From NCBI GenBank assembly GCA_013822425.1, contig PNKL01000020.1, forward strand, positions 1 through 46,812: a DNA stretch of 46,812 nt. Reading direction: 5' to 3'. The position numbers were made by a program, and so were the translations under genes. This DNA comes from Gemmatimonas sp. GTDB lineage: Bacteria > Gemmatimonadota > Gemmatimonadetes > Gemmatimonadales > Gemmatimonadaceae. The notes beneath the pieces are model-generated. The model saw only the letters and a program-made list of their open reading frames with translations, was not told the origin of the DNA and did not search any database. Positions within the stretch are counted from its first letter, which is position 1; each line of letters opens with the position of its first letter. Below, piece after piece: positions 4,295-35,063 of the stretch.

Positions 4295-5491
4295 TCAGGA
4301 AATATAGGCGCGTGCCGCCTCTGAAAGAAACGCGTACAGTCGGTCGGTCACGCCGACGAGATCGTGTTCCCGTCGCACCACCTCCCAGGCGCGGCGAGCC
4401 ATCGCCGGACCGTCGCCGCGCGCCGCCACGCAGTGCCGCAGCACGGCATCAATGGCCGACGGGGCGGGATCTTCGGCGAAGTGTGCGCACGCATGCCGGC
4501 GCAGGAAGTCGTTCGAGGCGGCCTCGTGCGGCCCGCACGCGAGGATCGGACGTCCCGCGGCCATGTAGTCCGTCACCTTGGTCTGGATCGAAGACCGCGA
4601 CATGTGCGCCTGCGACGGCTCGAACGACGATGCCACGAGGAGCAGGTCGCAGTCGCCAAGTGCTCCGCCGAGCGCCGCGTACGGGATGAGCCCGCCGTCC
4701 ACCACGTTCCAGCGCTGCCAGTTGTCCTGGTGGCGCTCCCAGAAGTACCGGTCGGTGAACAGCACGAACTCGATGTCGGTGCCTGCGGCACCCAGGCGCT
4801 GCACGCCCTGCGCGACGGCGGCCACCGCGTCCCAGTGCATCGGCCACACCGATCCGGCGTACCCGATGCGGAAGCGTCCGGCGCGCGGCGCGGATAGCGC
4901 GGCCGGTGGTGATTCGGCGAACGCCACGGGGTTGTGCACGACAAGCGCCGGCCGATCCACGCCGGTGAACTCGCGCGTGGACGACAGGAGATTTGGTGAG
5001 ACAGTGAGCCAGGCAGCCGACTCGCGCAGCAGCGTCCGTCCCCGGCGACGCGTGTCGAAGGCCAGCGCGACGCCCGGCGCGAACGCCAGCCAGTCGTCCA
5101 TGAGGTACGTCACGAGCGGTCCGAACGACTGGCACCGTTCCGTGATGGCGACGCCCGTCGGATGGGTTGGGACGGAGAGCACGAGCTGCGGGTCGAACCG
5201 CTCGATCTCGGCACGGCCAGGGAGGGGACGAATGCCGACCCACGCCGCGTCCAGGTGACCGATCAGGCCCCGCAGTGCCTGCGTGACGCGCCCCGGGAGG
5301 GCTGGCGCGGCGGGCAGCACGCGCCGACCTCCTTCCATCGTGAACGGCGTGCTCGTGTTGGCGCTCACCGCGAGCAGGCGGTCCTCAGGGTAGCGCGAGA
5401 ACAGGTTGACGAGGGTGCGCCCGGCGCCGCGGCTGCCAGGCGAGAGGTCGGCGTCCGTGACGAGCAGGAGCCGCGGCGGCGCGGCGGTCAC
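4295..5491 (-). CDS. Glycosyltransferase family 4-like protein
   Basis: This protein of 398 residues has a GT-B layout. The N-terminal strand '[20 protein letters not shown]' starts the acceptor domain. The donor half starts near '[15 protein letters not shown]' and continues to '[17 protein letters not shown]', the place where GT4 enzymes bind the nucleotide-sugar diphosphate. I place the start at GTG 5491, which overlaps the epimerase stop as GTGA; a GTG at 5509 would extend it by six residues. The close coupling to a nucleotide-sugar epimerase suggests that the epimerase product or its derivative is used in the same surface-glycan pathway. Donor and acceptor are unknown. Confidence 0.82.
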
Positions 5492-16441: not shown

Positions 16442-17649
16442 GATGTCGCCCCCGCTCGATGTTCACTCATGGCCGGAAAGACCAGGCGGACTTCCGTCCC
16501 TTCGCCCGGCGTGCTGTCGGCTTCGACGCGTCCGCCGTGCGCCACCACTGTCTGCTTCACGATTGCCAGCCCCAGCCCCGTCCCCGCCGTCTTGTCGGTC
16601 ACGTACGGGTCCCAGATGCGAGGCAGCTTCTCCGCCGCGATGCCGCATCCGTGGTCCCGCACGGCCACCACGACGTCGTGGTCGCGCCGGGCCACGCGCA
16701 CCTCCAGCCGCGCCGTCGCGCCGCCCGCCTCTACTGCGTTGATCAGCACGTTCGCGAAGGCGCGATGCAGCGCGTCGTGCTGACCCTGTACGAGCGGGAG
16801 GTGCGGCTCGGTTTCGAGCTGGAGTGCCGCGGAGTCGGGGACGCTCGTGCGCGCCACCTCGCGCGCCATGTCCCCGAGGTCGAGCGCCGCCATCGGTCCC
16901 TCGGGTAGGCGGCCGAATTGGCCAAAGCTGCGCGCCATGGCCTCCAGCCGCTCGCTCTCTGTCGAGAGCACATCCAGTGTCTCGCGCAGTTCCGGCGCGG
17001 CGTCCCGTCGCAGGCGCGCGATCGCGAACCGGATGGGCGTCAGCGGGTTCTTCAGCTCGTGGGCCACCTGCCGAGCCGATTCACGGAACGCCTCGAGTCG
17101 CTCGGCCGCAATGGCCGATTCGCGCCCGCGTTCGAGCTCGGCGGCCATGGTACGCATGCGGTCGCGCAGGACGCCGAATTCCGGTGCGCCGCGCTTCGTG
17201 ACGCGCTCCGGGAGCGGCTCTCTATTCGTGATCGCCTCGGTCCAGCGTACGAGTTCATCCAACGGTCGGCTCAGCTGTCGGCTCAGATGGCCAGCGATGC
17301 GCGACGCGAGGTAGGTGAGGACCGCGAGCAGGATGAGCCCGACCACGAGGAGCGCCGGGCCCGTCTGCCGCGCCAGGTACTCGAACCGGCGCGCCTGTGT
17401 GACCGAACTGGCGAGTTCCTGCTCATGGCGCGTGAGAGCCGCCTTCGCTTCAAGCGACATCGGCGCCTCAAGCGCGAGGCGCACCGCCCGCGCTCCCGAG
17501 GCCGCCACGCGGTCCCACGCCGCCGCCCCGCTCATCCGCGGAAGCACACGGCTCGTCGCCCCGCCCCACGCCACCGTCAGGACCAGCGACGGCACGAGCG
17601 CGAAGAGCGCGAGGATGACAAAGAGCCGGGCGCGGAATCCGAGTGACAC
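16438..17649 (-). CDS. NtrY-like membrane sensor histidine kinase
   Basis: The 403-residue kinase has two transmembrane segments (about 8-30 and 98-118) flanking a short extracytoplasmic region of about 65 residues, a HAMP-like linker, and HisKA with phospho-acceptor H197 in 'ARQVAHELKNPLTPIRFA'. The HATPase domain shows the N box 'NVLINAVEAGG', G1 'VRDHGCGI' and G2 'TAGTGLGLAIVKQ'. No PAS domain is visible, unlike classical NtrY. It should phosphorylate D52 of the regulator made by the same operon. The small sensor domain hints at detection of a membrane or periplasmic signal. The start at 17649 leads straight into 'MSLGFRARLFVI'. Confidence 0.9.
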   Translation of the reverse strand: MSLGFRARLFVILALFALVPSLVLTVAWGGATSRVLPRMSGAAAWDRVAASGARAVRLALEAPMSLEAKAALTRHEQELASSVTQARRFEYLARQTGPALLVVGLILLAVLTYLASRIAGHLSRQLSRPLDELVRWTEAITNREPLPERVTKRGAPEFGVLRDRMRTMAAELERGRESAIAAERLEAFRESARQVAHELKNPLTPIRFAIARLRRDAAPELRETLDVLSTESERLEAMARSFGQFGRLPEGPMAALDLGDMAREVARTSVPDSAALQLETEPHLPLVQGQHDALHRAFANVLINAVEAGGATARLEVRVARRDHDVVVAVRDHGCGIAAEKLPRIWDPYVTDKTAGTGLGLAIVKQTVVAHGGRVEADSTPGEGTEVRLVFPAMSEHRAGATS

Positions 17650-18079
17650 GATATCTGGGACGGAACTGGGTGCAGGGGAGTTTCATTACGACACGACCCC
17701 CCGAAACTTGCTAGCGGCGCGGGGTTGCGGCCACTGGCCCTGCAGGGGACGGGTGCCGCCGGACCCCCGCAGGCATTACATTACTCGACCAGAGGTCCCG
17801 GACGTTGCCGATGATCGGCTGATCATCGGCTTCGCCCGTGACTTCGGGGCCACCCAGCGTCCGCGCCACCCGCGTCTCCCGGCACCGCCGATAGCCAGTG
17901 GAGCGTGCTCGCGGCCCCTTTCGCACCCGCAGGTTCTTGCCGGCCAGCTGCCCCCATTGGCGCTCCGGTTGAGAACCGGTGGAGCACATCAACCACGGGC
18001 AGCTGCCGCGTCCGGTCACGAAGGCCGTGTTGGCATGCTCGCCCCCGGGCCGTTTGCGCCCGGCCAATCGCGAGAAGGC
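17650..18079. promoter_or_regulatory. 430-bp gene-free region with several hairpins (long leader of the NYN gene?)
   Basis: No credible coding region is seen. Three inverted repeats stand out. One at 17807-17830 has a perfect 10-base stem and 4-base loop. One at 17945-18005 has a 9-base outer stem (CAGCTGCCC/GGGCAGCTG) enclosing an inner hairpin of CCGGTT/AACCGG. A third, near 18049-18066, has CCGGGC/GCCCGG. I checked for tmRNA, RNase P and SRP signatures and found none. It may be a structured 5' leader of the downstream gene or carry promoters for both divergent genes. Confidence 0.45.
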
Positions 18080-19825
18080 ATGAACAACCGTCACCAGCGG
18101 AGCTCGTCGCTCCGCGCCCCCGTCGCTCCGCTGCACCGCGGGCCGCAAGCCGCCGCGCACGCCGCCGCCGGGATCGCCACGCCACACGCCGCGCCCAACG
18201 CGGCCCTGCTCATCGATTTCGACAACGTCACGATGGGCATCCGCTCCGACTTGCAGACGGAGCTGCGCAACCTGCTGTCGTCGGACATCATCAGCGGCAA
18301 GGTCGCCGTGCAGCGCGCCTACGCCGACTGGCGGCGCTACCCGCAGTACATCGTCCCGCTGTCGGAATCGTCCATCGACCTGATCTTCGCCCCGGCGTAC
18401 GGTTCGTCCAAGAAGAACGCCACCGACATCCGCCTCGCCGTGGATGCGGTCGAGCTGGTCTTCACCCGCCCGGAAATCGGCACGTACATCCTGCTCTCCG
18501 GCGATTCGGACTTCTCCTCGCTCGTGCTCAAGCTCAAGGAGTACGGCAAGTACGTCATCGGCGTCGGCATCCGCGAGTCGTCGAGCGACCTGCTGGTGCA
18601 GAACTGCGACGAGTACTACAGCTACAACGCCCTCGCCGGCCTCGTGAAGTCGAGCGACGAGACGGCCGCGCAGAAGTGGGACCCGTGGGAGCTGGTTACC
18701 GAGGCCATCACCCGCATGTCGAAGAACGGCGACGTCATGCGTTCGGACCGCCTCAAGCAGGTCATGCAGGAAATCGACGCGACGTTCGACGAGAAGAACC
18801 TCGGCATGTCGAAGTTCTCGCGCTTCTGCCAGGAAGCCTCGCACAAGGGGCTGATCCTCGTCACCAAGCTCGAGAACGGCCAGCTCGAAGTCGCGCTGCC
18901 GAGTGCGCTCCGCAAGGACGCGCCCACGCCGGCCGGCGCGGCGGCGGTCGGCGCCGCGCCGCGTGACGACGAGGAAGGACGGGGCCGTCGCGGCCGGCGC
19001 GGCGGCCGTGGTCGCGGTCGTGAACGTGCCGCTGAGCCGCGCCCCGAGGTCGCTGCCGCTCCTGCCGCAGTCGCGGCACCCGCAGCAACCCCCGCTGCCG
19101 CGCCCGCGCCGGCACCCGCCGCACCGGCGCCGCATCATCCGCGTCATCCGCGTCACGAGCGCAAGCCTGCCGCGCCGCATGTGGACGCCACCATCGGCGT
19201 CTCGGGCGTGCGCCTGACCCGCGACGAAGCGTTCTCGCTCGTGCGCCGCGCCGTTGAGGCGCTCGCCACGGGGGACTCCTCGGTCATGGCCGAGGCCGTG
19301 CGCGTCAAGGCGCGTGAACTGCTCGGCCGCGACAGCGAGTCGCTGAGCGACCGCAACTTCACGCGCATCCTGCGTGACACGCACGACGGCGGCGCGGTGG
19401 ATGTGCGCCGCCGCGGCGATTCGTTCGAGGTCTCGCGCGTCGAGGGCGCAGTCAGCGTCGCCGACCAGCTCAGCGCCGCCGAGGCGCAGGCCAAGGCCGA
19501 CGCACCGCCGCCGCCGGCTGCCGCGCCCGCTCCGCGCGGCGTGGGTGCGAGCCGCGGCCTCCCCGCCAAGGGGGGCCGTGGCGTGAAGGTGCCGCCGTCC
19601 CTGCTCCTCCTCGGCGTCGTGGACGACACGCCGGCGATGACGCCGCCGTCGCAGCCGGTGGCGGAGCCGGCCAAGAAGGGCCGCCCTGGTCGCAAGCCGC
19701 CAGCGAAAGCCAACGCCGCGGCAAAGGCCGAAGCTCCGGCGAAGGCTGAAGTCCCGGCGAAGGCTGCGGCCAGCGCCAAGCCGGCGGCACGGAAGCCGCG
19801 CGCCAAGAAGGACCCGGCTGCGTAG
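18080..19825 (+). CDS. NYN-domain (PIN-like) nuclease with two OST-HTH/LOTUS domains and H1-like tail
   Basis: A 581-residue multidomain protein. Residues 41-190 form a NYN (LabA/DUF88) nuclease domain with the acidic set D46, D48, D116, D142 and D144 ('LIDFDNV', 'ATDIRL', 'LLSGDSDF'). Residues about 200-275 ('WELVTEAI' to 'GQLEVAL') and about 375-452 ('DEAFSLVRRAVEAL' to 'DSFEVS') look like two OST-HTH/LOTUS RNA-binding domains. Between them lie an Arg-Gly-rich stretch (300-316) and an Ala/Pro linker. The C-terminus (531-581) starts with an AT-hook-like 'KKGRPGRKPP' and continues with Lys/Ala/Pro repeats like histone H1. ATG 18080 has AGAAGG just upstream. The architecture suggests an RNase acting on structured or nucleoid-associated RNA; the substrate is unknown. 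Confidence 0.85.
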   Translation: MNNRHQRSSSLRAPVAPLHRGPQAAAHAAAGIATPHAAPNAALLIDFDNVTMGIRSDLQTELRNLLSSDIISGKVAVQRAYADWRRYPQYIVPLSESSIDLIFAPAYGSSKKNATDIRLAVDAVELVFTRPEIGTYILLSGDSDFSSLVLKLKEYGKYVIGVGIRESSSDLLVQNCDEYYSYNALAGLVKSSDETAAQKWDPWELVTEAITRMSKNGDVMRSDRLKQVMQEIDATFDEKNLGMSKFSRFCQEASHKGLILVTKLENGQLEVALPSALRKDAPTPAGAAAVGAAPRDDEEGRGRRGRRGGRGRGRERAAEPRPEVAAAPAAVAAPAATPAAAPAPAPAAPAPHHPRHPRHERKPAAPHVDATIGVSGVRLTRDEAFSLVRRAVEALATGDSSVMAEAVRVKARELLGRDSESLSDRNFTRILRDTHDGGAVDVRRRGDSFEVSRVEGAVSVADQLSAAEAQAKADAPPPPAAAPAPRGVGASRGLPAKGGRGVKVPPSLLLLGVVDDTPAMTPPSQPVAEPAKKGRPGRKPPAKANAAAKAEAPAKAEVPAKAAASAKPAARKPRAKKDPAA

Positions 19826-24750: not shown

Positions 24751-27702
24751 TCAGCCTCCCACCGCGGCGGCGACCGCCGCCGCTTCGACGCGCACCGCGC
24801 ACACCTTGAACTCCGGGATGTGCGCGTGCGGGTCGAGCGCCGGGTTCGTGAGCAGGTTGGCCGCCGCCTCGCGGTAGTGCATCGGCACGAACACCTGGTG
24901 CCGCGCCACGCGCTCGCTGATGCGCACGGCGATGCGGATGTGTGCCCGCCGCGATGTCACGACCACCTCGTCCCCGTCGTGTACGCCCACCGCCGCGGCG
25001 TCCGCCGGGTTCAGCTCGATGGTCGGTGTGCTCTCGCGCGAGTCGAGCGCCGTCGACCGGCGCGTCATCGTTCCCGTGTGCCAGTGGTAGATCTGGCGTC
25101 CCGTGTTCAGGAAGAACGGGTACTCCGCGTCCGGCAGCTCCGCCGGCGGCAGGTACTCCACGGGAACCAGCGTGGCGCGGCCGTCGGGTGTCGGGAAGGC
25201 GTCCGCGAACAGGAAGGCCGTGCCCATGTGCGACTCGTCCGGCACCGGGTACTGCAGGCCGGCGCGGTGCTCGCGAAGCCGCGCGTGCGTCACGCCGCGC
25301 AGTGTCGGCGTCACCCGTGCGATCTCGTGTTGCACGCCCTCGCTGTCGGCGTACGGTGTCGCAACGCCGAGCCGCCGTGAGAGGTCGAGCAGGATATCGA
25401 GGTCCGCACGCGCCTCGCCCGGTGGCTCCACGGCCTTGTCGGCCAGCTGCACGCGGCGCTCGGTATTGACGAACGTCCCCGTCTTCTCGGCGAACGCCGC
25501 CCCCGGCAGCACCACGTCGGCGTAGCGCGCCGTCTCGGTGAGGAAGATGTCGTGTACGGCCAGGAACTCGAGCCCGCGGAACCAGTCCTCCGCGTGCGAG
25601 ACGTCCGGGTCGGAGATGACCGGGTTTTCCCCCATGATGTACATGGCGCGCACCGGGGAGTCGGCGCCCACGATCTGCGTGACCTTGCGCCCCACCGTGA
25701 GCGACAGGCGCTCCGGGTCGATGCCCCACGCCTCGGCGTACATCGCGCGGACCGCCGGGTCGTCCACGCGCTGATAATCCGTGTAGGCGAACGGCACCGC
25801 CCCCATGTCGCTCGCGCCCTGCACGTTGTTCTGCCCGCGGATCGGGATCATCGCCTTGCCCCACGCGCCGATCATGCCGCACGCCAGCATCAGGTTCAGC
25901 AGCGACGTCACGATGTCGGTGCCCGTGTGGTGCTGCGTCAGCCCCATCGCCCACAGCGTAGCCGAGCGCGGCCCCTTGGCGTACAACTCGGCGGCGCGCC
26001 GGATCAGCGCGGCGCTCACGCCGCAGATCGCCTCCGCCGCCTCGGGGGAGTACGGCGCCACCGCGGCGCGCACTGCCGCAAAGCCGTGCGTGCGCGCGGC
26101 AACGAACGCCTTGTCCTCGAGCCCCTGCTCAAGAATGTGGTGCAGCATCGCGTTCAGCAGTGCGACGTCGGTGCCCGGCACCATCTGCAGGTGGATATGG
26201 GCGCGCGCGGCCAGTTCGATGCGACGCGGATCGGCCACGATGAGCGTGGCGCCGCGCCGCGCCGCGCGCTTGATGGCCGCGCCGAACACCGGGTGGCTCT
26301 CGGTCGTGTTTGCCCCGAGTACGAAGATCACGTCCGACTCGTGCTCAACCTCGCGCATGGAACCCGAGGCGGCGCTCGTACTCAGCGCGCGCTGCATGGC
26401 GCTCACCGACGACGAATGGCACAGCCGCGTGCAGTGGTCCACGTTGTTGGTGCCAATGCCTGCGCGGAACAACTTCTGCAGGACATAGTTCTCCTCATTG
26501 GAGCATTTCGCGCTCTGGAACGTCGCCAGCGCGTCGGGACCGTGCGCGTCGCGTACGCGTGCCAACTGCTGCGCGGTGAGTTCAAGCGCCTCTTCCCAGG
26601 TGGCCTTCCGGAATGGCTCGTACCACGACTCTGGCGTCGCCACGCGATCGCGCGGGTCGCCGAGCGGATTCTCCGGGCGGTGATGCTTGCGCAGCGGGTT
26701 CGTGCGCGGGCGATGCGAGGCATTGCCTCCCTCGCCGCGGATGCTCTCCCACGGGCCGCCGCGGTCGGGAAACGCCGCGGCGCCGTCCCGCGAAGCGTCA
26801 AACGTCCATGTCCCCGCGGTGTCGCGCCGCCACCCGCGACGGATCAGTGGTGTGGTCAGCCGGTCGCGATGCAGCACGAAATCGGTGCCGAACCGCCCCT
26901 TCACGCACAGCGACCCCTCGCTCGGACTCGCTTCCTCGATCCACGGACTCGACACTTGCACGACGTCATTGCCGCGCACCTTCAGGTCCACCTGGCATCC
27001 CACGCCGCAGTACGGGCAGATCGAGCGCACCACGCGCTCCTCGTGCGCCATCGTGTCAAGGCGGAACTTCGCGTGCGGCAGGACGTCGTGGATCGCCCCC
27101 GTGGGGCAGACGCGCACGCACTCGCCGCACCACGTGCAGCCGGCGTGTTCCGGGTCGCCGTGCGCCCCCACGATGATGTGCGCGTCGGCGCCACGTCCCG
27201 CCACGTCGAGCACACCCACCACCTGGATGTCCTCGCAGGCGCGGACGCAGCGCGTGCAGAGGATGCACGTGCTCATGTCGTGCAGGATCATCGGGTCGGC
27301 GAGGCGGTGGTCGCCCTTGCGGAGCGGCAGGGCAGCGCGGTGCGCGGTGGGCATGTCGTACCGGCGCACCAGTGTCTCGAACTCGTTGCGCGCTCCGTCC
27401 GCGGGGATGCGCTCCACCGGGTAGCGCTCGAGCAGCATCGAGAGCACGCCGCGGCGGTTCGCCACCGCCGCGTCCGACTCGGTCGTCACCACCATCCCCT
27501 CGACCGTCGTCGTCGCGCACGACGGCAGCAGCTTGCCCGATCCCTCCACCGACACCAGGCAGATGCGGCAGTTGCCGGCGGTCGGCAGCTTCGGATACCA
27601 GCACAGCGTCGGGATGTCGATGGACGCGGCACGCGCCGCGTCGAGGATCGTCTTTCCCTCGGCGCACTGCACGGACTGGCCGTTGATCGTCAGCGTAGGC
27701 AC
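24751..27702 (-). CDS. Molybdopterin formate dehydrogenase, alpha subunit (Cys type)
   Basis: The 983-residue protein oxidises formate to CO2 in the cytoplasm. Order: 2Fe-2S ferredoxin domain with C34, C45, C48, C62; a linker (84-115) where the His-Cys3 cluster ligands usual in this fusion are absent; a two-cluster ferredoxin domain (C146/149/152/156 and C189/192/195/199); Mo-bis-PGD domain with 4Fe-4S ligands C229/232/236/266; active-site C428-H429 in 'HCTRLCHSSSV', where other enzymes have selenocysteine; and the C-terminal molydopterin-dinucleotide domain ('NTGRQIYHWHTGTMTRR'). A roughly 60-residue Arg/Pro/Gly-rich insertion lies at about 300-360. GTG 27702 has AGAGGA seven bases upstream. 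No beta/gamma subunit or FdhD is nearby, so its electron partner is unknown. Confidence 0.93.
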   Translation of the reverse strand: MPTLTINGQSVQCAEGKTILDAARAASIDIPTLCWYPKLPTAGNCRICLVSVEGSGKLLPSCATTTVEGMVVTTESDAAVANRRGVLSMLLERYPVERIPADGARNEFETLVRRYDMPTAHRAALPLRKGDHRLADPMILHDMSTCILCTRCVRACEDIQVVGVLDVAGRGADAHIIVGAHGDPEHAGCTWCGECVRVCPTGAIHDVLPHAKFRLDTMAHEERVVRSICPYCGVGCQVDLKVRGNDVVQVSSPWIEEASPSEGSLCVKGRFGTDFVLHRDRLTTPLIRRGWRRDTAGTWTFDASRDGAAAFPDRGGPWESIRGEGGNASHRPRTNPLRKHHRPENPLGDPRDRVATPESWYEPFRKATWEEALELTAQQLARVRDAHGPDALATFQSAKCSNEENYVLQKLFRAGIGTNNVDHCTRLCHSSSVSAMQRALSTSAASGSMREVEHESDVIFVLGANTTESHPVFGAAIKRAARRGATLIVADPRRIELAARAHIHLQMVPGTDVALLNAMLHHILEQGLEDKAFVAARTHGFAAVRAAVAPYSPEAAEAICGVSAALIRRAAELYAKGPRSATLWAMGLTQHHTGTDIVTSLLNLMLACGMIGAWGKAMIPIRGQNNVQGASDMGAVPFAYTDYQRVDDPAVRAMYAEAWGIDPERLSLTVGRKVTQIVGADSPVRAMYIMGENPVISDPDVSHAEDWFRGLEFLAVHDIFLTETARYADVVLPGAAFAEKTGTFVNTERRVQLADKAVEPPGEARADLDILLDLSRRLGVATPYADSEGVQHEIARVTPTLRGVTHARLREHRAGLQYPVPDESHMGTAFLFADAFPTPDGRATLVPVEYLPPAELPDAEYPFFLNTGRQIYHWHTGTMTRRSTALDSRESTPTIELNPADAAAVGVHDGDEVVVTSRRAHIRIAVRISERVARHQVFVPMHYREAAANLLTNPALDPHAHIPEFKVCAVRVEAAAVAAAVGG

Positions 27703-28203
27703 TCGGTCATCCTCTCGGGAAACACCACCCGATAAAGTTTGGCCGTGTGCTGGTGAATCGCAATCGGCCCGCCGCTGTCGCGCACGGCCCCGTGTACGCG
27801 CCGTGACATTCTCAGAGGAGGATCGTCGAATGCGCAGTGCGGTATTCGCGGCGAGGCCGATGGCGACATGCGCGAATGTGCGCGCAGGATCGTGTGAGAA
27901 GTGCGGCGCGAGCATCGCGATGATGCGCCGGACCGCAATTCGGCGCCGAAAAGAATTGTGGTGCTGGTACTTGCGCGAATTGAATCTTTAAACAATCGTG
28001 TAGGCAAGTCCGACGTGCGACGATTGCGATGATGAATCGGTTCGGCGATGTCGCGCACGCTGTTTTCGAAGGACGGAATCACCAGTTCACAACGCGCCCT
28101 TCGGGGCCGTGCACGAATTTCCGTCGTGGTGACGCGGCGGAGAAACCCAGCGATTCACCGGGGAATCGCCAGGGAAAGACCCTCCTTGATAGGAGCTAGG
28201 ACA
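27703..28203. other. 500-bp region without a convincing gene; leader of the peptide gene at its end
   Basis: Lower GC than its surroundings. Open frames here lack codon bias and family resemblance. It holds perfect palindromes at 27913-27922 and 27939-27950 (TTCGGCGCCGAA), a hairpin at 28150-28169 (GCGATT/AATCGC) and another at 28182-28195 (CTCCT/AGGAG). It likely carries the divergent promoters of formate dehydrogenase and of the small Lys/Ala peptide gene. Confidence 0.5.
28182..28195 (+). promoter_or_regulatory. Small hairpin that pairs the Shine-Dalgarno of the Lys/Ala peptide gene
   Basis: CTCCT and AGGAG pair across a TTGAT loop. The AGGAG is the ribosome-binding site eight bases before ATG 28204, so the stem could hide it. 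Confidence 0.45.
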
Positions 28204-28278
28204 ATGGCTGCCAAGAAGAAAGCTGCGAAGAAGAAGGCTGCAAAGAAGCCCGCCAAGAAGGCCGCGAAGAAGAAGTAG
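28204..28278 (+). CDS. 24-residue histone H1-like Lys/Ala peptide
   Basis: The gene encodes only 24 residues: Met, two Ala, then blocks of Lys2-3 separated by Ala-Ala or Pro-Ala, for 14 Lys in all. It has AGGAG eight bases before the ATG, a stop, and a strong terminator-like hairpin right after, so it looks like a complete gene and not a fragment. The composition matches the C-terminal tails of H1-like/AlgP-like proteins and the tail of the NYN protein at 18.1-19.8 kb. Such a peptide would bind nucleic acid without sequence preference. No known gene of this size can be named. It converges on the 53-residue gene at 28502. Confidence 0.72.
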   Translation: MAAKKKAAKKKAAKKPAKKAAKKK

Positions 28279-28298
28279 TTCTTCCGCTCTTCGGAGCA

Positions 28299-28332
28299 CA
28301 CAGGGGAGCTGGCATCTGCCGGCTCCCCTGTG
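28299..28332 (+). terminator. Terminator hairpin after the peptide gene
   Basis: CACAGGGGAGC pairs with GCTCCCCTGTG around an inner CGGCAG-like loop, followed by CGTTTA. It lies 20 bases after the peptide stop. Confidence 0.78.
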
Positions 28333-28389: not shown

Positions 28390-28412
28390 TAGCCACGCTC
28401 ACTGAAATCAAA

Positions 28413-28442
28413 GCGGCCGACGGGAATCAACCCCGCCGGCCG
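28413..28442. terminator. GC-rich hairpin between the two 10-bp arrays
   Basis: GCGGCCG and CGGCCGC close a stem with inner GGG/CCC; it is the centre of the larger inverted structure formed by the flanking arrays. Confidence 0.6.
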
Positions 28443-28496
28443 CTGCCGTTCTCTGCCGTTCTCTGCCGTTCTCTGCCGTATTCTGTCGTTCTCTGC
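28443..28496 (-). repeat. 10-bp array (ACGGCAGAGA) just after the 53-residue gene's stop
   Basis: Five 10-base units CTGCCGTTCT on the plus strand, one diverged to CTGCCGTATT and one to CTGTCGTTCT. The same two divergent units appear at matching positions in the left arm, so the arms match unit by unit. It starts five bases beyond the TAG at 28502-28504 (minus strand). Confidence 0.82.
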
Positions 28497-28501
28497 GCGC
28501 G

Positions 28502-28663
28502 CTACGCCGCCGCCGGCTTAGGCTGCTCCTCTGGTTCCGGTACCGGCACCGGTCCCCAGATATATGCGGACAGGCGAGGGGTCTCTTCAGCGCGCGGTCC
28601 GCGCGAAATGATGATGCCGAGGGGCTCCTGCTTGACGATTTCGACCTGACGAAGCTGATTCAT
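28502..28663 (-). CDS. Small hypothetical protein (53 residues)
   Basis: The predicted protein starts 'MNQLRQVEIVKQEPLGIII', has a central 'SRGPRAEETPRLSAYIWGP' and ends in a Pro/Glu/Ala tail. The order of hydrophobic and charged residues looks like a genuine small soluble protein. I chose ATG 28663; an in-frame start at 28696 would add eleven residues. No signal peptide or known motif is present. The ribosome-binding site is weak (GGA). A GC hairpin (GCGCTGCC/GGCAGCGC) lies just upstream at about 28687-28709. I do not recognise a family. Confidence 0.55.
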   Translation of the reverse strand: MNQLRQVEIVKQEPLGIIISRGPRAEETPRLSAYIWGPVPVPEPEEQPKPAAA

Positions 28664-28875: not shown

Positions 28876-29652
28876 TTACGCGACTGCCTTCCTCGCGACA
28901 AAGGTCTTCGACTCGCCCTTGTCGTGCACGATCGAAATCGCCCAGCCGCTGTACTGCTGCCGCAGCTCCGCTTCGTCAATCATGGACGATCCCGCCACGA
29001 TGGTCTCGACGAGATGCACGCCGCCATCCATGGTCACGCTCTTCAGCACGTCAAAGACGCGCGAGCGCTCGTCGGAAGACAGGCCGGCGAATGCCGCCGG
29101 CGTGCATACCACGGCCGTCAGCGGATCGGTTGGCAGGTGCGTGTGCAACTCGCCCACCGTGCCGCGCACCATCAATTCGAGGCCGGCATCACGCGCCGCC
29201 TCCAGCATGCGTTCCACGACGTCGCGCTCAGGCTCGACCGCCGTCACGGCGCATCCGTTGGCGGCGAGGTAAAGCGCCGACCCCTCCACGCGCGCACCCG
29301 TGACCAGCACCGACCCTGAGCCCGCCAACAGGGGGATGGCCGCCCTCAGCGGCGTGTTGCCGCGCAGGCCCCAGTGCTCGGGACGCTGCAGTTCCGATGC
29401 GTTGCGCTGGCGCCGCTTGCGCCACGTATCATACGACGGCAGCCGCAGCCGGCCGGTGATCAGCTTGTCCACCTCCGCCGCGAGCAGCAGTTCCGTCATG
29501 CCCATCTGCGTGCCGCTGCCGAGGCGGCGCATCGCCTCGTCCGCGAGCGACATGAGCGCCGACCGGCTGACCGAGTTCTTGTAATCCTCGATCTCGCGTT
29601 CGACGTACATCTCGTATTCGTGGCGGAGCGAACGGGGGCTGTGCGGCGGCAT
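28876..29652 (-). CDS. Predicted Rossmann-fold protein, SAM-methyltransferase-like
   Basis: The 258-residue protein has an N-terminal helical part rich in charged residues ('EYEMYVEREIEDYKNSVSRS') and a C-terminal alpha/beta domain. There, 'GSGSVLVTGARVEGSALYLA' resembles motif I and 'CAVTAVEPERDVVERMLEAA' the acidic motif II of class I methyltransferases. Motif I lacks the usual G-x-G spacing, so SAM binding is uncertain. ATG 29652 is chosen; ATG at about 29616 is possible. A terminator follows. It diverges from mutM across a repeat-filled gap. Its role is unknown. Confidence 0.6.
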   Translation of the reverse strand: MPPHSPRSLRHEYEMYVEREIEDYKNSVSRSALMSLADEAMRRLGSGTQMGMTELLLAAEVDKLITGRLRLPSYDTWRKRRQRNASELQRPEHWGLRGNTPLRAAIPLLAGSGSVLVTGARVEGSALYLAANGCAVTAVEPERDVVERMLEAARDAGLELMVRGTVGELHTHLPTDPLTAVVCTPAAFAGLSSDERSRVFDVLKSVTMDGGVHLVETIVAGSSMIDEAELRQQYSGWAISIVHDKGESKTFVARKAVA

Positions 29653-29737
29653 GGTTGGGCTGAAGGCCTGCTCACAAGGTAAAATTCGGCGCGGACAATG
29701 CAATTACTTGCGGAACCAAGATTCGGGCGATTCCCGT

Positions 29738-34989: not shown

Positions 34990-35063
34990 TGCGCGAGGCG
35001 GGATTCGAACCCACGACCTTCGGCTCCGGAGGCCGACGCTCTATCCAGCTGAGCTACTCGCGC
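34990..35063 (-). tRNA. tRNA-Arg (anticodon CCG)
   Basis: A full cloverleaf: acceptor GCGCGAG/CTCGCGC, D arm GCTC/GAGC, anticodon stem TCGGC/GCCGA with loop CTCCGGA (anticodon CCG, decoding CGG) and T arm GTGGG-TTCGAAT-CCCGC. CCA is not encoded. It lies 120 bases upstream of rho on the same strand. Confidence 0.96.

Follow-up and report, generated by a model that had tools for sequence, protein, structure and literature searches.

A conserved lysine-rich micro-gene with a structured leader RNA in the Gemmatimonadaceae, probably encoding a miniature Hc2-like polycation

We consider it probable that the Gemmatimonadaceae possess a single-copy, monocistronic gene for a miniature Hc2-like polycation, whose translation would be off by default and released or tuned through P1, a hairpin in the leader of its transcript. 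The copy described here lies in a stretch of 46,812 nucleotides from Gemmatimonas sp. that was analysed as a whole (the window). More tentatively, the P0-P1-P2 hairpins of the leader, with their ACCGGG loop, may constitute a new class of cis-regulatory RNA that controls translation of this mini-H1 and of Lys-tailed SWIB proteins family-wide, with a histone-like protein functional at 14-24 residues.

The micro-ORF occupies 28204-28278 on the forward strand and encodes 24 residues (MAAKKKAAKKKAAKKPAKKAAKKK, then a stop codon), namely 13 Lys, nine Ala, one Pro and one Met, with zero acidic residues. A Shine-Dalgarno GGAG (28192-28195, +) is located 8 nt 5' of the ATG at 28204, and the elements within 28118-28332 (+) follow in the order P0, P1, P2 with the Shine-Dalgarno, ATG, the 24-codon ORF and a terminator stem. 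This last element is an intrinsic terminator-like stem of 15 bp followed by CGTTTAT (28299-28332, +); of 52 relatives, 50 have a stem of at least 8 bp just past their stop codon. When the 206-nt region was folded, it gave a z-score of -5.2 and none of 200 shuffled sequences was equally stable. A previous sequence-only reading had proposed a complete, stand-alone gene for an H1-like peptide with its own ribosome-binding site, a stem able to hide that site and a terminator, and this description is borne out: ORF, GGAG and terminator are all present and conserved, the stem (CTCCT-TGAT-AGGAG, 5 bp) leaves GGAG with a predicted unpaired probability of 0.05, and the peptide has the composition of a Lys/Ala polycation with long positional orthologues that are Hc2-like. 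The start then assigned to the gene (28182) proved to be that of P2, the conserved structured leader beginning at 28118 with P0. The likeness suggested to the tail of an NYN protein is weak (about 6 Lys per 24 residues of that tail), and the 24-mer is more like the N-terminal tail of a SWIB protein encoded on a different contig of the genome. The NYN protein itself is an 836-aa product of 17315-19825 (+), with an NYN domain (Pfam 1.3e-24) and a C-terminal tail rich in Lys, Ala and Pro. In the correct frame the 24-mer had zero family matches among Pfam and NCBIfam profiles.

Leader, ORF and terminator are jointly kept at 87-95% DNA identity in eight of the ten other genomes of the genus, and leader and ORF at 78-79% identity in two further genera; in a scan of named genomes, the true relatives belonged to the Gemmatimonadaceae or Gemmatimonadota. 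Loss in related genomes of the ORF with its ribosome-binding site had been put forward as grounds for abandoning the gene, and both are conserved. Within the genus, six distinct 24-codon alleles gave a pN/pS of 0.032 in the proposed frame, whereas the remaining frames gave 4.9 and 1.8, a large contrast from a small set of repetitive sequence. Values from 13 ungapped 21-codon ORFs of more distant genera (0.55 versus 0.41 and 1.29) are uninformative, since the order of Ala, Thr and Lys is unaligned in them. Frame-specific purifying selection together with in-frame change of length is what distinguishes a protein-coding small gene, and the locus displays both. Judged from these substitution patterns, the ORF is real and under strong purifying selection as a protein within the genus.

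Among relatives whose flanking DNA is long enough, most have the polycation ORF next to two conserved ORFs, which serve as markers of synteny. In the window they lie on the reverse strand and encode 53 aa (28502-28663; MNQLRQVEIVKQEPLGIIISRG..YIWGPVP.., LGIIISRG..YIWGPVP) and 275 aa (28876-29703, a marker across the family). The 53-aa ORF has no match in Pfam or NCBIfam; a methyltransferase assignment for the 275-aa ORF was dropped and the ORF left unnamed because Pfam gives no match to it. The other side of the gene is flanked by a molybdopterin oxidoreductase gene (24751-27702) on the opposite strand to the micro-ORF. A pmbA/tldD-like metallopeptidase gene is often found directly upstream of the polycation gene (e.g. 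at 3-1466 of L011, in L012 and L096, and in L216 of the sister family), and is missing beside the window's copy and many others.

ORFs at the syntenic position are Lys-rich and encode 14 to 51, 72, or 102 to 137 aa, including a 105-aa form in genome G031. The long forms cluster in a few lineages and require at least three changes on a tree of the neighbouring 275-aa protein. Micro forms occur throughout the family and also in the sister family, where six loci (L215, L216, L218, L226, L021 and L022) carry Lys/Ala ORFs of 20-23 aa with a different but equally placed hairpin and a terminator; at two of these loci the ORF lies behind pmbA. On a parsimony reading, the long forms would thus have arisen by growth of repeats.

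Three of the long syntenic orthologues matched Pfam HC2 (PF07382) with E-values of 1.8e-9, 3.4e-8 and 5.7e-7. The bit scores of these three (L065 38.4, L064 34.2, L076 30.3) are all below the gathering cut-off of 40, and neither the 24-mer nor any other long orthologue matched the profile. Lys/Ala/Arg repeats, a strongly basic character and an almost complete lack of acidic residues, the features by which H1-like composition is recognised, are all present, and ORFs of less than 60 aa have a mean net charge of +0.55 per residue. By composition, then, the polycation would work like an H1/Hc2-type protein, yet it is not filed under Pfam HC2 because even the long forms miss the threshold. It resembles Hc2/HctB histone H1-like nucleoproteins (PF07382) and other bacterial H1-like polycations in Lys/Ala-rich repeat composition, but at 24 aa here, and down to 14 in relatives, it is too short for any family model.

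The leader begins with P0 (28118-28145, +), an 11-bp stem closed by a GUGA tetraloop. Across 53 non-redundant leaders the mean z-score of P0 against shuffles was -2.5, with values below -1 in 45 and a few leaders without a clear P0. P1 follows (28146-28174, +) and comprises an outer CCC/GGG helix, a small internal loop and an inner 7-bp helix (GCGATTC/GAATCGC) that presents the loop ACCGGG at 28157-28162. In A4, an alignment of ten leaders from micro-ORF and SWIB genes, each sequence forms all seven inner pairs, of which six are altered on both sides. In A5, an alignment of 57 matches, there were 92 double-change cells for P1 versus 25 in shuffles, where cells count sequences rather than events and the alignment was fitted to a covariance model that favours a covariation signal; the signal was lost when the partner columns were slid. 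Independently of the covariance model, 49 of the 53 non-redundant micro-ORF leaders form six or all seven inner pairs around ACCGGG, whereas 2.2% of 983 further ACCGGG sites in the same sequences do so. The inner stem has 42 distinct sequences across 66 loci with pairing retained, and the outer helix, which varies between lineages, averages 3.7 bp versus 2.8 when arms were reshuffled between loci (maximum 3.1 in 500 reshufflings). Furthermore, when 25 leaders were aligned with plain MAFFT, RNAalifold recovered P0 and P1, with eight pairs changing on both sides.

The final hairpin, P2 (28182-28195, +), pairs the Shine-Dalgarno GGAG within its 5-bp stem. P2 has at least 4 bp in 50 of the 53 leaders (shuffle mean 33.6, maximum 40), and GGAG is unpaired with a mean probability of 0.07, versus 0.36 with the spacer shuffled. 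A few lineages lack P2 or have an altered form of it, and the RNAalifold consensus, in which the P2 columns are misaligned, does not include it. The most conserved columns of both A4 and A5 include the Shine-Dalgarno; the start codon is also among those of A4, having been placed in the aligned stretch by choice. Since the leaders were gathered partly through the ACCGGG motif, and in places through a Lys-rich start, the constancy of the P1 loop is partly built in. The loop can change, as shown by ACGGTG in the syntenic leader L016 and by ACTGGG, ACTAGG, ACTTCC or ACTTCG in the sister family. Two roles for the loop, both judged by eye, were rejected on these grounds: complementarity to the Shine-Dalgarno region is not kept by the sister-family loops ACTTCC and ACTGGG, and the same loops break the complementarity needed for loop-loop dimerisation through CCGG.

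A covariance model of the leader (R1), which contains no coding positions past ATGGC, matched 124 of 148 genomes and 33 of 35 genera of the Gemmatimonadaceae. In wider sets it matched 68 of 151 genomes at the level of the order and 79 of 249 at that of the phylum, and nearly all of these belonged to the family. Matches outside the family were few and weak, and the four such loci examined (L211-L214) have no Lys/Ala ORF of this kind; hits of a motif pattern scan outside the Gemmatimonadota were rejected, their stems being short or missing and their proteins unrelated. All 53 matches examined at 22.6 bits or above precede a Lys/Arg-rich ORF, as does one weaker match (L081, 22.0 bits), while the remaining four weaker matches (17-22 bits) appear fortuitous. 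A structured cis-regulatory leader RNA is recognised by helices that covary and by its recurrence in front of a single class of gene, and the leader shows both.

Genes bearing the leader are of two kinds, pure polycation ORFs and SWIB-domain proteins (Pfam PF02201) with Lys/Ala tails. By position, the majority are the polycation gene described here, and SWIB genes make up the remainder. The SWIB gene of the same genome (L002, contig C29, about 4749-5090) has the same P1-P2 leader, at 64 bits, and for this reason mini-H1 and SWIB are regarded as a small shared-leader group of chromatin-type proteins. Its product shares a near-identical MAAKKK start with the micro-ORF peptide, but differs in the folded SWIB domain that follows the tail and in having no P0 directly upstream, P0 being missing from that position in the SWIB leaders inspected.

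Over the leader, no Rfam 15 family reached its gathering threshold, and relaxing the E-value to 1 yielded weak chance hits only; the sole Rfam match in the window is a tRNA at 34990-35063. The leader shares a general layout with known cis-regulatory RNAs, i.e. a structured leader occluding a ribosome-binding site, and matches none of the Rfam 15 families. No description of the polycation gene or its leader was found in the open-access literature, and as far as could be checked the leader is an undescribed RNA motif with strong covariation. A related form of control is established in Chlamydia, where the small RNA IhtA holds back hctA translation post-transcriptionally until it is needed (PMC3469542, PMC4355289), and HctA is lethal when made in E. 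coli (PMC3469542). Post-transcriptional restraint of an H1-like protein, proposed here from sequence, would be common to both systems, but IhtA is a separate small RNA whereas the present leader would act in cis and combines a covarying hairpin with a built-in stem that pairs with the Shine-Dalgarno. By analogy, silencing of a harmful polycation by its leader would make similar sense here.

Four other explanations were weighed. The molecule that functions could be the RNA itself, as a structured and terminated small RNA in which the ORF is incidental; the sequence-only reading had offered an RNA product by way of alternative. This would fit the high stability of the conserved fold (z -5.2), the three conserved hairpins and the terminator, and the persistence of the leader where the coding part shrinks to 14 codons. 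We nevertheless regard this as unlikely because selection acts at the protein level (pN/pS 0.032) and length changes stay in frame in ORFs that are always Lys/Arg-rich. Every examined leader match at or above 22.6 bits precedes such an ORF, of up to 137 aa, and the Shine-Dalgarno and the start codon, the latter aligned by choice, are among the most conserved columns. Alternatively, P1 could act as DNA, an inverted repeat serving as operator for a dimeric repressor, and such a repeat does stand upstream of two related genes in this genome. Against this, the 42 distinct inner stems keep their pairing despite wide variation, and constancy is greatest in the loop rather than in the half-sites. The succession of P1, P2 and Shine-Dalgarno is also fixed, and a conserved block resembling a promoter is found some 140 bp upstream of P1, all of which makes an operator very unlikely.

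The two further alternatives concern the peptide. That it is a ribosome-bound basic microprotein, like THX or bL37 in other phyla, and not a nucleoid protein, appears quite unlikely. It is certainly very short and very basic, and ribosomal-protein leaders have a similar layout, with structure covering the ribosome-binding site, but growth by repeats from 14 to 137 aa is unlike a protein that fits one ribosomal place, and a SWIB gene, but no ribosomal gene, was seen behind the leader. Least probable of all is a modified-peptide-like pair in which a neighbouring PmbA/TldD-type protease has the peptide as its substrate or partner: the 24-mer lacks Cys, Ser and Thr as sites of modification, the long forms look Hc2-like, and the pmbA/tldD-like gene that stands directly upstream in many family and sister-family genomes is missing beside the window's copy and many others.

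For the favoured reading, a leader-controlled miniature polycation, a mechanism can be outlined. The peptide, with its 13 lysines, would coat or condense DNA (or RNA) by charge, as suggested by its composition and by synteny with longer Hc2-like proteins. P2 would hold translation low by default, so that its opening would be needed, and P1 is proposed as the docking site of a trans-factor that would set P2 opening or ribosome access; the factor could be a small RNA, a protein, or the polycation regulating its own synthesis. Bacteria are known to have H1-like polycations, but we are aware of none of 14-24 residues, and if the proposal is true the peptide would be among the smallest chromosome-packing proteins proposed. 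Common gene finders have a lower limit of 90 nt, and the genes fall below it, so a conserved part of likely nucleoid machinery would miss annotation. The leader offers a testable mechanism in Shine-Dalgarno occlusion, and its presence at the SWIB gene suggests that a small group of chromatin-type genes is controlled together after transcription. Furthermore, the range of 14 to 137 aa at one locus provides a natural series for the minimum length of a DNA-condensing protein.

Upstream of the leader, a candidate promoter block (TACTTGCGCGAATTGAATCTTTAAACAATCGTGTAGGCAAGT, 27953-28009, +) is kept in seven of the eight same-genus loci compared, with ATACAAT at the -10 place in relatives. A sigma-70 consensus scan for a promoter gave no site, and the conserved block is visible solely by comparing relatives. 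An inverted repeat, ACTTGC...GCAAGT, flanks the -10-like TACAAT/AACAAT within 27953-28009. The block is a possible promoter with an operator, and would give a leader of approximately 190 nt. On the other side of the gene, 28412-28500 contains a repeated CTGCCGTTCTCTGCCGTT tract with a terminator-like stem on the minus strand (28412-28444), and TCTGTCGTAC repeats similar to this tract occur near the locus in L008.
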